This document shows positions 4,531 to 17,467 of a stretch of 64,000 bases of DNA, piece after piece. A program made the translations under genes and the position numbers. Below the pieces are notes generated by a model. That model saw nothing but the letters and a program-made list of their open reading frames with translations. It ran no database searches and had not been told where the DNA came from. Each line of letters starts with the position of its first letter. Position 1 is the first letter of the stretch. Origin of the DNA: an uncultured Hungatella sp. (lineage in GTDB: Bacteria; Bacillota; Clostridia; Lachnospirales; Lachnospiraceae); contig CAMUJH010000004.1 of NCBI GenBank assembly GCA_947089145.1, positions 50,601 to 114,600 of the forward strand. The letters are read 5' to 3'.

Positions 4531-5614
4531 TCCATTGAAACCATTGGTGGAAAAGTTCGGGCTTCCCCGGGTTATTATTGTTTCATTCTTTCTGTTTCTC
4601 ATAGCGGCGGCGGGAATGTTCCACATGAACCTGATGCAGCTGTTAAGCGACTGTTTAAGGCGCTGGGGAATGTACGGAATTCTTGCTCTGGCCATGGTGC
4701 CTGCGGTGCAGTGCGGAATCGGGCTGAACTTTGGTATTTCCATGGGAATCGTAGGCGGGCTTTTAGGCGGTTTGATCGTGATCCAGTTTCGGGTGGCCGA
4801 GAATCCGGCTCTTGTGGCTATCCATCCTCTGTTTGCCATGTGGGTGGCAGTCCTGCTGGCCATTGTCATCGGCGTGATACTGGCTACGGGAATCGGATAT
4901 CTGTATGGCCTGCTGCTGAACCGGGTCAAAGGCTCGGAGATGACGGTTACCACCTATGTGGGATTTTCCATTATCGCTTTCATGAATATGATGTGGATGC
5001 TGCTTCCCTTTACAGATGGAGAGCTGATTTGGCCTAATGCGGGGAAGGGACTTAGAAATACCATCTCTCTGGCAGCCTCTTTCAGCAATGTTATGAATAA
5101 GACGCTGGCATTCAGCATAGCAGGCGTTACGGTTCCAACAGGGCTTTTGCTGTTTTTCTTCCTCATGTGTTTTCTGGTGTGGCTGTTTATGCGCTCCAAA
5201 ACAGGCATGGCCATGAGCGCGGCGGGGGCCAACCCTATGTTTGCCACGGCAGCGGGAATCAATGTGAATAAGATGCGCATTATCGGCACAGTGCTTTCTA
5301 CAGTGCTGGCGGCTGTGGGAATCCTTGTATATGCCCAGGGATTCGGATTTATCCAGCTTTATAACGGGCCTATGATGATGGGATTTACGTCTGTGGCAGC
5401 GGTTCTTATCGGAGGGGCAAGCCCAAGAAAGGCCAGAATCGCCCATGTGCTTATCGGAACGTTTCTGTTCCAGGGGATCATGGCGCTAGGCCTTCCTGTG
5501 GCCAACCAGTTTATACCAGAGTCCAACCTTTCGGAGGTTGCCCGTCTGATTATCTCCAACGGCATTATTATCTATGCTTTAAGCCAGGTGAAAGGAGGAA
5601 GCGGACGTGAATAA
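4523..5614 (+). CDS. ABC transporter permease (BPD_transp_2 type), first subunit
   Basis: A polytopic permease of 363 residues, about eight to nine membrane helices, of the ribose/nucleoside branched permease family. The frame is open upstream, but the start at ATG 4523 is supported by GGGAGGAAG at 4508-4516 and by an 8-base overlap with the ATPase stop, the usual sign of translational coupling. The segment AGANPMFATAAGINVNKMRI is the conserved cytoplasmic loop that contacts the ATPase in this family. It pairs with the next gene as a heterodimeric channel. Confidence 0.87.
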   Translation: MRNPLKPLVEKFGLPRVIIVSFFLFLIAAAGMFHMNLMQLLSDCLRRWGMYGILALAMVPAVQCGIGLNFGISMGIVGGLLGGLIVIQFRVAENPALVAIHPLFAMWVAVLLAIVIGVILATGIGYLYGLLLNRVKGSEMTVTTYVGFSIIAFMNMMWMLLPFTDGELIWPNAGKGLRNTISLAASFSNVMNKTLAFSIAGVTVPTGLLLFFFLMCFLVWLFMRSKTGMAMSAAGANPMFATAAGINVNKMRIIGTVLSTVLAAVGILVYAQGFGFIQLYNGPMMMGFTSVAAVLIGGASPRKARIAHVLIGTFLFQGIMALGLPVANQFIPESNLSEVARLIISNGIIIYALSQVKGGSGRE

Positions 5615-7094
5615 GAAATCAAAGTTTAATGTGAGGGATTTTCTGTTCCAGAATAAAGTGGTTTTCATGTTCCTGGTGCTGTGCGTCGGCGCTACCATTG
5701 CTTCCAAGCAGCCTCTTACGTTTGTGATTCCGGAACTGTTTACCCGTATTGCCAGGAACTCGTTTATTGTTTTGTCCCTGATCATTCCGGTTATCGCAGG
5801 CATGGGGCTGAACTTCGGCATTGTAATCGGAGCCATGGCAGCTCAGGTGGCCATTTTCCTGACCACCTACTGGGGCATGACCGGCTTTGGGGGATTTGCC
5901 GCCACGGTGGCCCTCTCAACGCCCATAGCCGTGTTCTTTGGATTCCTGGTGGGCAAGCTGTTTAACTATATGAAGGGCAATGAGATGATCGGCGGCCTGG
6001 TGCTGGGATATTTTGCAGAGGGGCTTTACCAGCTGCTGTTCCTGTTTATATTCGGCGGCGTGATCAAAATGAATAATCCGGATCTGATGATCTCCACAGG
6101 CGCTGGCGTGAAAAATACCATTGACCTTAAAGATACCGTAAAGTATGCGCTGGATACCGTGCCCATGCTGACAATTGTTGAAGTGGGCTTCTATGCGGTT
6201 ATTCTTGGGCTTGTGTGCTCGGCGGCATTTAAGATGGCAAAGAAGCAGGAGGTGGACTGGAAGTCTGTAGCGATCAAGGCCGCTGCGGCAGCAGTGATTT
6301 ACGGGCTGACCTTTATAAAGCCGGTGGAGCGGTTCTTATCTGCTGACCGTCTGCTTCTGCTTTCCGCAGTAGAGCTTGGATGCCTGGTGACGGTTTTATG
6401 GCAGGTGTTTCAGTTTGCAAAGTGGAAAGTGCAGAGCAGCAAGGCAGATGAGGATGCCAGCCCGGAGCCGTTTAACATGCATAAGGCCATTGCTTATGGG
6501 GCTTTGGCAGCAGTGGTCTATGGATTGACATATGTTCCTACATTATATAATGTGCTGATTGCCGTAAGGCTTCCGGTAATGACTTATCTGTGCATCGGCG
6601 GGCTGTGCTGCTTTAACAATATTCTTATGAAGACCCGCCTGGGCCAGAACATGAGAACTGTGGGACAGAGCCGCACCGTGGCCAATGCGGCAGGCATTAA
6701 TGTGGATAAGACCCGTATTATTGCCATGATCTTTTCTACGGTGCTGGCATGCTGGGGACAGCTGATTTTCCTGCAGAATGTGGGGACGCTGTCTACCTAC
6801 GGGGCCCACACTCAGGTAGGGCAGTTTGCTATTGCAGCCCTTCTGGTAGGAGGAGCTTCCGTGCAGAATGCTACCAATAAGCAGGCGCTGCTGGGAATTG
6901 TGCTGTTCCATACATTGTTTATCGTGTCGCCTCTGGCCGGCAAGGAATTGTTCGGCGACCCGGCTATCGGTGAGTATTTCCGCGTGTTTGTGTCTTATGG
7001 CGTTATTGCCATGTCGCTGGCTATGCATGCCTGGAAAAAGGCAGCCAAGCCTAAGGAGGAAACAGACGGAGAGAGAACTGCGGAGGCGGCTTAA
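5607..7094 (+). CDS. ABC transporter permease (BPD_transp_2 type), second subunit
   Basis: Second membrane subunit, 495 residues. It starts at GTG 5607, overlapping the previous stop by 8 bases, with AAAGGAGGAAG just upstream. It shares the family core (NAAGINVDKTRIIAMIFSTV near residues 360-380) but carries an extra middle stretch (about residues 205-310) with added hydrophobic helices and a charged loop (KADEDASPEP), so it is longer than its partner. A strong terminator closes the operon. The cargo is unknown; family relatives move sugars, nucleosides or similar small solutes. Confidence 0.87.
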   Translation: MNKKSKFNVRDFLFQNKVVFMFLVLCVGATIASKQPLTFVIPELFTRIARNSFIVLSLIIPVIAGMGLNFGIVIGAMAAQVAIFLTTYWGMTGFGGFAATVALSTPIAVFFGFLVGKLFNYMKGNEMIGGLVLGYFAEGLYQLLFLFIFGGVIKMNNPDLMISTGAGVKNTIDLKDTVKYALDTVPMLTIVEVGFYAVILGLVCSAAFKMAKKQEVDWKSVAIKAAAAAVIYGLTFIKPVERFLSADRLLLLSAVELGCLVTVLWQVFQFAKWKVQSSKADEDASPEPFNMHKAIAYGALAAVVYGLTYVPTLYNVLIAVRLPVMTYLCIGGLCCFNNILMKTRLGQNMRTVGQSRTVANAAGINVDKTRIIAMIFSTVLACWGQLIFLQNVGTLSTYGAHTQVGQFAIAALLVGGASVQNATNKQALLGIVLFHTLFIVSPLAGKELFGDPAIGEYFRVFVSYGVIAMSLAMHAWKKAAKPKEETDGERTAEAA

Positions 7095-7349: not shown

Positions 7350-8606
7350 ATGGAGCAGCTGTTTATAACGAATATAACCATTAAAAAAGTGCGGCATTTA
7401 CATGATATTACAATTCCGTTGTCGAATAAAGGAATCAGACATTTAATATTGACAGGAAAAAATGGAAGCGGTAAGACAAGCGTAACGGAAGCTTTGGCGA
7501 ACTATATCAGCCATGTATGTACGGATAAATATTTTGAAGATAGGCAGGAGTGGACGGACAGTGCTGAAAAGCAAAAAGATCTGGCGCTGCAAAAGAAAGA
7601 AAGTGAAGCTGAGTATTTAATGTTAAAGGCGTGTTATGATGAAAGAAGGGAGGATTTAGACAACAGCAGGTGCGGCTTAGATATAGAGTTTAACCATAGC
7701 ATCAGCAGTATCATAGAACTGTCAAAAAAATACCATTATATATTAGCTTATTATAAGTCAGACAGAATATTTCAGGCAGTGCAGCCAAGGTATGTTGAAA
7801 AGGTACAGTTTAAAGACCAATATGGATTGACGGAATTTCCCCGCAGCGAATTTGTAAAATATTTGTTAGACTTGAAGATGACAGAGGCATTGGCAAGAAA
7901 TAATAAGAAAACAGAGAAGGCAGACGAAATTCAAAAATGGTTTGAAAGCTTAGAACAGCTTTTAAGGCAAATATTTGCTGATGAAACGGTACAATTAGTA
8001 TTTGACGAGGATACCTTTGAATTTCATATTCTGCAGAGAGGAAAAGAGCCTTTTGACTTTAACACGCTGTCTGGCGGTTATCAGGCAGTGCTGGATATTG
8101 TACTGGATCTTATGATGCGGATGCAGAATCAGACCCGCCGGTCTTTTTCCTTTCATCTGCCGGGAATTGTGCTGATTGACGAGATAGAGACACATCTGCA
8201 TTTGGAACTGCAAAAGAATATTATGCCTATGCTGACATTCATCTTTCCTAACATTCAGTTCATAGTAACTTCCCATTCTCCTTTTATTTTAAACAGTTTG
8301 GAAAACGCCGTAATTTATGATTTGGAAAGCCGCCTTTTAGTCAGAGAGGGATTGGAGAATATACCATATGACGGGATTGTGGAAGGGTATTTTGGTGCTG
8401 ACAAGCTGTCTAAGATTCTGAAGAGGAAATTTGAGCGTTATAAAGAATTGACAGAAAAGGAGAGGCTGTCAGATGATGAGCTAAACGAAATCGCAGAACT
8501 GGAATTATATTTAGACGAGATTCCTGATTATCTTGGACTTGATATTGCAACGGAATACGAAAGATTGAAGCTTGAATTTATGAATCGGGAGGATACAGAT
8601 GGTTAA
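7350..8606 (+). CDS. ptuA: Septu defence ATPase PtuA (SMC/OLD-like AAA ATPase)
   Basis: A 418-residue single-domain ATPase: Walker A GKNGSGKT (36-43), ABC-like signature LSGGYQ (240-245), Walker B IVLIDEIETHLH (273-284) and H-loop TSHSPF (307-312), with a helical insert between about 60 and 200. This layout, with the next gene encoding an HNH nuclease, matches the two-gene Septu anti-phage system, in which PtuA assembles with PtuB and triggers nuclease activity. Ribosome site GGAGGG is at 7338-7343. Base composition is visibly more AT-rich than both flanks, suggesting acquisition by transfer. No reverse transcriptase lies nearby, so a retron arrangement is not supported. Confidence 0.8.
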   Translation: MEQLFITNITIKKVRHLHDITIPLSNKGIRHLILTGKNGSGKTSVTEALANYISHVCTDKYFEDRQEWTDSAEKQKDLALQKKESEAEYLMLKACYDERREDLDNSRCGLDIEFNHSISSIIELSKKYHYILAYYKSDRIFQAVQPRYVEKVQFKDQYGLTEFPRSEFVKYLLDLKMTEALARNNKKTEKADEIQKWFESLEQLLRQIFADETVQLVFDEDTFEFHILQRGKEPFDFNTLSGGYQAVLDIVLDLMMRMQNQTRRSFSFHLPGIVLIDEIETHLHLELQKNIMPMLTFIFPNIQFIVTSHSPFILNSLENAVIYDLESRLLVREGLENIPYDGIVEGYFGADKLSKILKRKFERYKELTEKERLSDDELNEIAELELYLDEIPDYLGLDIATEYERLKLEFMNREDTDG

Positions 8607-9267
8607 AATAAAGCGTTCTTTTCCGGCACCTGAATCATTGGCAGAGGAGGCAGGGAAAGCGGGCGGAAAATATGATAGGTAGGATGTGGTGGAGAGGCTG
8701 AAAAAGGATTTTCATAATAAGTGCTATATTTGTGAAATGAAAGAACTGCAGGACCCTAATGTAGAGCATTTGCTTCCTCATAAAAACGGAAAGTATCCAG
8801 AAAGAAAATTTGACTGGGAAAACCTTTTCTGGTCCTGCGGGCATTGCAACGGAATCAAGAATAACAGTAAATACGATAAGGGAATCATAGATTGCTGCAG
8901 AGAGGACCCGGAAAAATATCTGAATTTTCGGATTGAAAATAATAGGGTAGTTATTCATATGGAAGATTCAAGTGACGAAATGCAAAAAAGGACGGCATTA
9001 TTAATAGAAGAAACATTTTCTCTGAAAAACACGGGAATGAGAACATATACCAGTGATGAGCGATGGAAATTACTTCAAAGGGAAATGAATATCTTATATA
9101 AGCAGCTGGAAAAGATACATAATGTTCCTAACTCAAGGATTACAGTGAAAATGATTGGCAGCTTGTTAAGACGGGAATCGGCATTTGCAGCGTTTAAAAG
9201 ATGTTATGTACGTGATCATATTGCAGAGTATCCAGAGCTTGAACGGTATGTAAACCTGAATGATTAA
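8599..9267 (+). pseudogene. ptuB: Septu HNH nuclease PtuB interrupted by an in-frame amber codon
   Basis: ATG at 8599 overlaps the ptuA stop by 8 bases and opens MVKIKRSFPAPESLAEEAGK, the normal PtuB N-terminus. Codon 28 is TAG (8680-8682), after which the same frame runs on to TAA at 9265-9267. The downstream part holds the intact nuclease core: CYIC (Cys42, Cys45), EHLLPH (56-61), an Asn and a second zinc pair CGHC (80-83). A single base change from CAG or GAG would explain it. In-frame GTG codons at 8686 and 8689 could restart translation just after the stop, but no well-placed ribosome site precedes them. It may be dead, read through, or made in shortened form. Confidence 0.75.
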
Positions 9268-9386: not shown

Positions 9387-9415
9387 TTGATTTCTTTACG
9401 TGATTGAACCATAAT
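9387..9415 (+). promoter_or_regulatory. Promoter of the unknown membrane protein gene
   Basis: TTGATT (9387-9392), 17-bp spacer, CATAAT (9410-9415). Its expected transcription start falls after the ATG at 9404, which argues for translation from the ATG at 9476. Confidence 0.55.
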
Positions 9416-9475
9416 AGAGTGAAAACATGCAGACAAGGTATTACTGGGAGTTTTGCGGGGAGAGGATTTGGGATT

Positions 9476-10954
9476 ATGGACAAAACGGTGTCAAACAGAG
9501 GAATCAGACGGCTATACTGGGCTGTCAGTGCGTGCTTTCTTGTGCTGGCAGCCTGGTTATATTGTAAAGAGGGGCCCTATGTAAAGATTATGGATATAAG
9601 CGCAGTGCCAAAATCCGGACAGATTCAGGCGGAGGTTCTGGCAGACGGGAAGAATATAAAAGTGTCATGCAAAGACAGGGACGTTAAACTGTTTGTGAAT
9701 GAAAGCAGCGAAGGTGACAAAACCTGCCTGATGCTCTATGGGGAGTGCGAGGAAAGCAGGGAAGGCTCCGTGACCATAAAAGTGGTCAGTGACAGTGATG
9801 ACTGGAAGGAGACATGGAACTGCCGGATGCTTGCCGGAACCCTGACGGGGGAGGCTAAGGTGCATGCAGCGGAAAACAGAGCCAGGAAGGCTTATTTATG
9901 GTTTTCCGGCCTGATGTTTCTCTTTTTTGGGGTCAGATGGTTTTGGGGAGAAAAGAGTAAGATCCAGAAGGAGTTGGAGGCTTACAGCAGCAGGGTCATA
10001 GAAAAACTTGGGCAGGAGCCGGGAATGGATAAATTTTGCAGAGACGGAAGGCGGCTGTGTGCAGCTTATGAGAAGCAGAAAGTGATTATGGTTTTACTGG
10101 TTTCCTGGGCTTGGGCGTTTTGGCTTTTCTGGGTGCTGCATGGAGCAAACCATGGAAGGTTTGATCAGGTATCCGGCGGGTGCCTGCGGGCATTGATTTT
10201 TGGGGCGGCTGCGGCAGGATGCCTGAAATTTGCCGCATCCATCAGATGGGGCGGTTTGAGCAAAGAAATTCTCACCGGGGACTGCCGTCCCGTTACAGCG
10301 GCTGCGGCATATCTGCTTATGGGAACTTATGGGATCGAAAGAAATTGGAGCCGGTTTCTTCTGTACCACAACGGGGCTTCCGGACTGTACCGCAGCGGCC
10401 ACTGCAGGGAGGCTTTGGAGATTTCCGATATGGCGTGGAAGATGCTGAAAAGGAAGCCCAGGGACTATATCGTATATGTGCACAGTTCCCTGAAATATCA
10501 ATGCTTTCAGGTTTTGGAGGAATTAGAGGCTGCAGAGCAGGAAAAACAGCGGATGGAGGCTTTGGTGGCACAGAACCCAGGGTGGAAAAGGAAAAAGAGC
10601 ATTCAGAGATTCCTTGGAATACAGGATATCTGCCAGCGGATAGAAGCCGGAGAGATAGAGCAGGCAGAGAAAAGCGCCCGGGAGATTTTGGGGCAGTGGA
10701 AGGAAGGATATTACCGGCTTCCGGTTCTGGGGCTCATGGCGGAGCTGAAGGAGTTTCTGGGCAAGGAGGAGGAAGCAGCAGAACTGCGGGAGGAGATTCT
10801 TGCCTTCAGCCCTGAAAACAAGGAAGTCCGGCAGGTTATGGGAGAGGGAAGATTAAGATACCGGGAGAAAAAGGCAAAAGCCTGGGACCCTGGGCTTTTG
10901 GTGATTGATGCAGTATGTCTGTGCGGGATTGCAGGGACGTTGTTTCTCATGTAG
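9476..10954 (+). CDS. Membrane protein of unknown function with C-terminal helical repeats
   Basis: 492 residues if started at ATG 9476, preferred over an upstream ATG because of GGGGAGAGG at 9454-9462 and the promoter position. Visible layout: membrane helix about 12-29, a roughly 110-residue extracytoplasmic domain rich in beta pattern, helices about 139-156, 203-221 and 236-255, then a soluble region whose alternating helices and aromatic spacing look TPR-like (for example YHNGASGLYRSGHCREALEI), and a last helix at the C-terminus. I do not recognise the family. It stands alone between the Septu genes and a palindromic repeat. Confidence 0.7.
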   Translation: MDKTVSNRGIRRLYWAVSACFLVLAAWLYCKEGPYVKIMDISAVPKSGQIQAEVLADGKNIKVSCKDRDVKLFVNESSEGDKTCLMLYGECEESREGSVTIKVVSDSDDWKETWNCRMLAGTLTGEAKVHAAENRARKAYLWFSGLMFLFFGVRWFWGEKSKIQKELEAYSSRVIEKLGQEPGMDKFCRDGRRLCAAYEKQKVIMVLLVSWAWAFWLFWVLHGANHGRFDQVSGGCLRALIFGAAAAGCLKFAASIRWGGLSKEILTGDCRPVTAAAAYLLMGTYGIERNWSRFLLYHNGASGLYRSGHCREALEISDMAWKMLKRKPRDYIVYVHSSLKYQCFQVLEELEAAEQEKQRMEALVAQNPGWKRKKSIQRFLGIQDICQRIEAGEIEQAEKSAREILGQWKEGYYRLPVLGLMAELKEFLGKEEEAAELREEILAFSPENKEVRQVMGEGRLRYREKKAKAWDPGLLVIDAVCLCGIAGTLFLM

Positions 10955-17319: not shown

Positions 17320-17467
17320 AAAAAGCCTCCTTTCATAAAAGCGCTGACACAGACTGGAAAGAATCAGCAATGTCAAAAGGAGTGTAGCACGTTATTTATC
17401 ATAAATCAATATATATTTATTGAATATCAATAAATATTAAGAAAATATAAAATAATTTAAAAGCTTA

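Follow-up and report, generated by a model that had tools for sequence, protein, structure and literature searches.

The window analyzed here, that is, the whole stretch of 64,000 nucleotides, belongs to the Hungatella genome G000 and carries a Septu locus in which an ATPase gene, ptuA, is followed by an overlapping nuclease gene, ptuB, with an interrupted reading frame. The features of the locus and its surroundings are given below.

5607..7094, + strand, upstream neighbor, which we take to be an ABC-transporter permease; syntenic in the sister species G010
7350..8606, + strand, ptuA, intact Septu ABC/AAA ATPase, 418 aa (PADLOC PDLC00268; Pfam AAA_15/AAA_21)
8599..9267, + strand, ptuB frame, interrupted, 222 codons plus stop (frame reading, PADLOC profile)
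8599..8679, + strand, conserved ptuB N-terminal segment 5' of the stop, 27 codons (PDLC00321, alignment)
8677..8683, + strand, weak Shine-Dalgarno-like AGGTAGG before the GTG codons (duplex -7.3 kcal/mol)
8680..8682, + strand, in-frame TAG, codon 28 of ptuB (sequence, translation)
8686..9267, + strand, downstream open frame from GTG, 193 aa, with the whole HNH region (ORF list, PADLOC)
8719..8859, + strand, CYIC...VEHLLPHKNG...HCNGIK zinc/HNH region, undamaged (translation)
9404..10954, + strand, downstream neighbor, 516-aa ORF; syntenic in G010

PtuA matches the PADLOC profile PDLC00268 over positions 2-408 of 411 (E 4e-122), and its translation contains GKNGSGKTS, LSGGY and DEIETH, the first of which is presumably the P-loop, with the roles of the other two assumed likewise. 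The ptuB ATG at 8599 sits inside the end of ptuA (stop codon at 8604-8606), resulting in an overlap of eight bases. The 27 residues before the TAG match positions 1-26 of PDLC00321 (E 2.2e-6) and the part starting from GTG 8686 matches positions 31-223 (E 8.3e-69), so that an HNH gene directly 3' of ptuA is recognizable by homology on either side of the TAG, which is the sole internal stop in the frame 8599-9267. Gene order, gene overlap and both protein families are thus those of Septu, and the window differs from the known systems in that the TAG prevents continuous translation of its ptuB. Judged by these features, the window locus is a broken member of Septu. An earlier note on this DNA had identified the locus as Septu and had described an intact ptuA-ptuB overlap, a complete HNH core downstream and a ptuB frame open except for codon 28, all of which our analysis bears out. 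Since the window is part of G000, the copy of the TAG in that genome is the same sequence and provides no independent confirmation.

PtuA and PtuB also serve as the effectors of Retron I-A/Ec78 (Eco7), and these are distant homologues of the window proteins. The NCBIfam models for the retron forms of PtuA and PtuB (NF041760 and NF041761) score far below their cut-offs in the window, at 119 of 500 and 31 of 150 bits, respectively. By inspection, the neighboring genes are the permease and the 516-aa ORF, with no reverse transcriptase. The combination that marks Retron I-A, namely retron-subfamily PtuA and PtuB next to a reverse transcriptase, is therefore absent from the window locus.

We aligned PtuB with 24 intact close relatives, all drawn from the ptuB-bait set of the census described below. 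All 24 relatives begin at the upstream ATG and M1, V2, R6, F8, P9, A10, P11, S13 and L14 are invariant among them, as are C42, C45, H57, H61, C80, H82, C83 and N84; the column that carries the stop (codon 28) varies. The distant intact PtuBs L069, L071, L073 and L079 also begin upstream, with MIK or MIR and the conserved R6, and are without the FPAPxSL motif. On the basis of these alignments, the start of ptuB is the upstream ATG at 8599. The earlier note had named homologues that begin at the GTG and show no upstream conservation as a finding that would overturn its reading, and the 24 relatives, with their upstream ATG and conserved N-terminus, show the opposite.

The next in-frame start codons after the TAG are GTG 8686, which encodes the invariant V30, and GTG 8689. 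Ribosomes stopping at the TAG might re-initiate here, yielding a PtuB of 192-193 aa with the whole HNH region and a Septu system that is partly active or down-tuned. The GTG-GTG pair lies only 3-6 nt past the TAG with AGGTAGG in front of it, and the three nucleotides between the TAG and GTG 8686 make termination-reinitiation mechanically possible. The ptuB frame 3' of the TAG is undamaged, and the absence of FPAPxSL from distant intact PtuBs indicates that this motif is dispensable in some of them. Pairing with the anti-Shine-Dalgarno sequence is, however, weak, at -7.3 kcal/mol before GTG 8686 compared with -10.3 kcal/mol at the ptuB ATG; among 1500 window positions picked at random, a value of -7.3 kcal/mol lies between the 10% and 25% quantiles. 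Further, the part removed by a restart carries the nine N-terminal residues invariant in close relatives, so a restart product, if made, would be without a segment conserved in its own branch. One locus of Parablautia intestinalis (L017) retains an open ptuB from residue 25 with most of ptuA gone, which would be a precedent for a shortened PtuB, but without a working ptuA it resembles a deletion relic. Taken together, we regard restart as unlikely. Structure prediction was carried out for the PtuB of L018, an intact relative, with the 24-row alignment: the AlphaFold model has a mean pLDDT of 70.7 but falls below 50 over residues 40-88, which make up most of the HNH core, and a Foldseek search of this model against the PDB returned no match at E <= 0.001.

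Insertion of an amino acid at the TAG by read-through or recoding, resulting in low-level full-length PtuB, had likewise been suggested. The rest of the frame is intact and the variable stop column implies that an inserted residue would be tolerated. Against this, no CUA anticodon was found among the 32 typed tRNAs of G000 (at least 35 matches, 3 of them at contig ends and untyped; 150 of 176 first-look candidates scored in a genome that is 87% complete). TAG is also an ordinary stop in the window, where it terminates 10 of the 48 long ORFs called mechanically, most of them non-overlapping, and no relative aligned or translated carries a stop at codon 28. The marks of a recoded gene, a suppressor or Pyl tRNA and avoidance of TAG, were thus not seen in the incomplete G000. 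The evidence from tRNAs and TAG usage against a suppressor is good but not final; the suggestion has gained no positive support, and we consider it highly improbable.

The age of the lesion can be approached through G010, a species of the same genus that carries ptuAB at the same site, between the same permease and 516-aa ORF. Codon 28 of its ptuB is a sense codon. The G010 copy has damage of its own, with a deletion and a frameshift in ptuA and about 113 middle codons missing from ptuB. In the congeners G005 and G015 the 516-aa ORF follows closely behind the permease, and no ptuA or ptuB matches were found between these two genes. The common ancestor of G000 and G010 probably carried both genes, which were later broken independently in the two lineages. 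Between the window and G010, dS ranged from 0.235 to 0.599. Residues 84-418 of ptuA gave a dS of 0.294, a dN of 0.041 and an omega of 0.138, residues 1-41 an omega of 0.053, and the N- and C-terminal remnants of ptuB omegas of 0.11 and 0.157, respectively; four neighboring genes showed omegas of 0.035-0.165. Because ptuA and ptuB appear to have been constrained for most of the time since the split of G000 and G010, both lesions should be young, and the two copies probably failed recently and separately. A lesion that is absent from the orthologue, in a frame otherwise under constraint, is the signature of a recent pseudogene, in good agreement with the recent knock-out proposed in the earlier note.

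To place the window locus among its relatives, Septu loci were collected with two baits. The ptuB bait was positive in 14 of 99 genomes (own included) and gave 43 loci among genome contigs. The PtuA bait was positive in 8 of 26 genomes of the genus and in 5 of 28 and 3 of 11 genomes of two other genera (own counted where searched), as well as in at least 18 of 397 genomes of the family, at least 11 of 392 of the order and at least 4 of 391 of the class. At these last three levels the genomes were drawn evenly from a larger group, and scoring covered 4 of the first-look candidates in each listed genome, which numbered about 15-95, so that further or weaker loci may have escaped; two family loci (L161 and L162) came from the searches of the order and the class. 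Damage was called from protein-to-DNA alignments reporting frameshifts, stops and long gaps, with unclear cases decided by eye, and "intact" denotes an open frame of normal extent and nothing beyond.

This yielded 66 distinct Lachnospiraceae loci, many of them from metagenome bins, five of which could not be judged: L018 and L043, where the contig begins inside ptuA (ptuB of L043 also contains a stop), L047 and L084, where the contig ends inside ptuB, and L054, which has 339 identical bases in common with L029 and is a possible assembly chimera. Also excluded were the Selenomonad loci L048 and L055-L057, the weak HNH matches L012-L014, the loci of other families (L009, L010 and L163-L168, with L165 and L166 being the same places as L009 and L010), the duplicates L050 and L089, and repeat views of counted contigs. 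The metagenome bin CASJPF holds two Septu copies, L029 and L050, one intact and one with the HNH region of ptuB deleted; over 10 kb the latter shares 99.9% identity with L049, which comes from a different bin. We also observed that the breakpoints of L053, L007 and L054 nearly coincide at ptuB residue ~154, just before LLQ(R/K)EMN.

Damage was found at 23 of the 61 assessable Lachnospiraceae loci. Both genes were intact at 38, only ptuB was broken at 13 (the window, L016, L044, L045, L046, L049, L051, L053, L075, L080, L088, L090 and L130), both were damaged at 10 (L017, L052, L058, L064, L066, L081, L082, L083, L087 and L132), and not a single locus had only ptuA broken. Several of the doubly damaged loci resemble one deletion across both genes, and either gene may have been the first to fail at these 10 loci. 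The 13 lesions confined to ptuB comprise one nonsense change (the window), five single frameshifts (L016, L044, L045, L051 and L080) and seven deletions (L046, L049, L053, L075, L088, L090 and L130). Assuming independent loci and a chance of lesion proportional to length, with ptuB making up 222 of 640 codons, a ratio of 13:0 has a p of about 1e-6. Under the same assumptions, p is about 2e-4 for the 8:0 left without the five single frameshifts, which are possible sequencing errors, and about 6e-4 for the 7:0 of the ptuB-bait set alone. Three calls are soft: L032 was scored intact although its ptuB stops 6 codons early, the L075 deletion begins at the very end of ptuA (omitting it gives 12:0), and calling ptuB of L017 intact would change the ratio to 13:1. 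A quickly built tree of PtuA from 43 loci, 32 of them intact and 11 taken from the 13 broken ones, requires at least 10 state changes, with 20 of its 40 inner branches weakly supported, and on this basis most ptuB losses look independent.

The census also bears on whether the stop is real. With its 127 contigs, completeness of 87% and contamination of 3.45%, G000 resembles a metagenome bin, and one changed base accounts for the whole difference, so an assembly artefact or a mixed strain population, with a sense codon at 8680-8682 in the living genome, has to be considered. Against this, assemblies contain fewer substitution errors than indels. Further, random errors should strike ptuA more often than ptuB since it is 1.9 times longer, yet 12 further loci carry other lesions in ptuB only and ptuA is never the sole broken gene. 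We thus think an artefact improbable, if somewhat less so than restart.

The most probable reading, to which we assign a probability of roughly 0.7, is that the window holds a chromosomal Septu locus whose nuclease gene was recently inactivated by the nonsense change at codon 28, as one of repeated losses of the nuclease. The HNH subunit would be lost while PtuA stays intact, and the product would be no PtuB at all or, through restart, at most trace amounts of a form truncated at its N-terminus. In other Septu systems, H-N-H mutants of PtuB, studied in E. coli, and Walker mutants of PtuA are each reported to abolish immunity (PMC13096335), and by analogy with these PtuB mutants the window locus should be defense-dead, its ptuAB pair giving no PtuB-dependent defense. 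A point that counts against inactivation is made by Belinky et al. 2021, who argue that many in-frame stops in bacterial genes mark neither pseudogenes nor fatal lesions (PMC7918605).

Why only the nuclease gene breaks by itself may have to do with its cost. The nuclease would be the costly part of the pair, and lines losing it would be favored or at least tolerated. In retron-Eco7, PtuA and PtuB are reported to be toxic together, with neither being toxic singly (PMC11555353). The cost of an active pair can explain loss as such but not the absence of breakage confined to ptuA, because losing either subunit should relieve it. Loss of PtuA alone may be rare for one of several reasons: PtuA may restrain PtuB, ptuB may be more easily damaged, PtuA without PtuB may cost nothing, or PtuA alone may have a use. 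The first of these is weakened by the same retron-Eco7 data, where PtuB expressed singly is not toxic. Regarding the second, short direct repeats were seen by eye at the junctions of L046, L053 and one of those of L058, where slippage is thus enough to account for the deletions; these repeats favor fragility of ptuB for the L046, L053 and L058 deletions and not for the nonsense change or the frameshifts. The deletions of L046, L049 and L053 remove the HNH region in frame. Selection for an in-frame, HNH-less PtuB was considered as a general rule and rejected, as only three of the 13 ptuB-only lesions are clearly in-frame deletions.

At the doubly damaged L058 (~760-1030) a short open frame joins the ptuA start, a piece of ptuA near residue 340 and pieces of ptuB through three in-frame deletions. 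At L052 (3978-5294) residues 1-354 of ptuA continue in frame into the HNH region of ptuB. The resulting 438-aa ATPase-HNH frame stops short of the normal ptuB C-terminus; it is probably a deletion relic, and it could be a working fusion.

PtuA without its nuclease might also be kept on purpose, as an antidote, an immunity gene or a partner of another effector, which would be compatible with recent inactivation of ptuB. Its gene is intact wherever only ptuB is broken, at 13 loci, and PtuA at 11 of them shows 0-5 departures at 77 otherwise invariant sites. Such departures are slightly more common than at 32 intact loci (mean 1.7 compared with 0.8 of about 77, p 0.059), a pattern expected of mild decay. 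Ten loci including G010 are damaged in both genes, and the window lesion is too young to tell. The departures are explained by mild relaxation no less well than by retention, and we claim no kept function; purposeful retention appears about as improbable as an assembly artefact. The inactive but useful defense variant envisaged in the earlier note stays conjectural. A bolder proposal is that PtuA is the antidote of PtuB in this branch of Septu. PtuA could then not be lost while PtuB is active, decay would begin with the nuclease, loci with PtuA only would be solitary antitoxins blunting incoming PtuAB, and the window would be a fresh example. We put this forward as speculation that is probably wrong, albeit the least improbable of the alternatives considered. 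Some similar intact PtuAs are ~40 residues shorter at residues ~55-110 (380 compared with 418 aa).

Among the groups examined, a high rate of ptuB breakage is shown solely for Lachnospiraceae. Judged by open frame, all six loci belonging to other families within the order (L163-L168) and all three Selenomonad loci (L055-L057) were intact. Related Septu systems occur in 14 of 5426 E. coli genomes, with PtuA 31% identical, each of which is listed with both an ATPase and an HNH endonuclease; the entries carry no pseudogene flags and form two identity groups, so this comparison says little. No PtuB match was found in the phage collection, and the 19 relatives on viral contigs are at most 47% identical, over part of the protein.

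Selective inactivation of defense genes is reported for CRISPR-Cas in the Bacillus cereus group, where defense function is likewise lost in related lineages (PMC7242445). In contrast to that case, the loss in the window hits the nuclease of a two-gene system and the ATPase partner persists. A description of nuclease-first loss in Septu was not found in the literature searched, which is weak evidence of absence given that most subscription journals lay outside its scope. Taken alone, the window is one broken defense gene with an ordinary single lesion, and the wider pattern in Lachnospiraceae matters more: Septu repeatedly loses its nuclease with the ATPase frame open, and the reverse is absent from 61 loci. 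Software that calls Septu whenever both genes are present could go wrong at such loci. A testable claim about which subunit bears the cost, and whether PtuA restrains PtuB, also follows from the order of loss. Elsewhere in the window, positions 17393-17448 hold an AT-rich tandem repeat with a 21-base period and about two copies.
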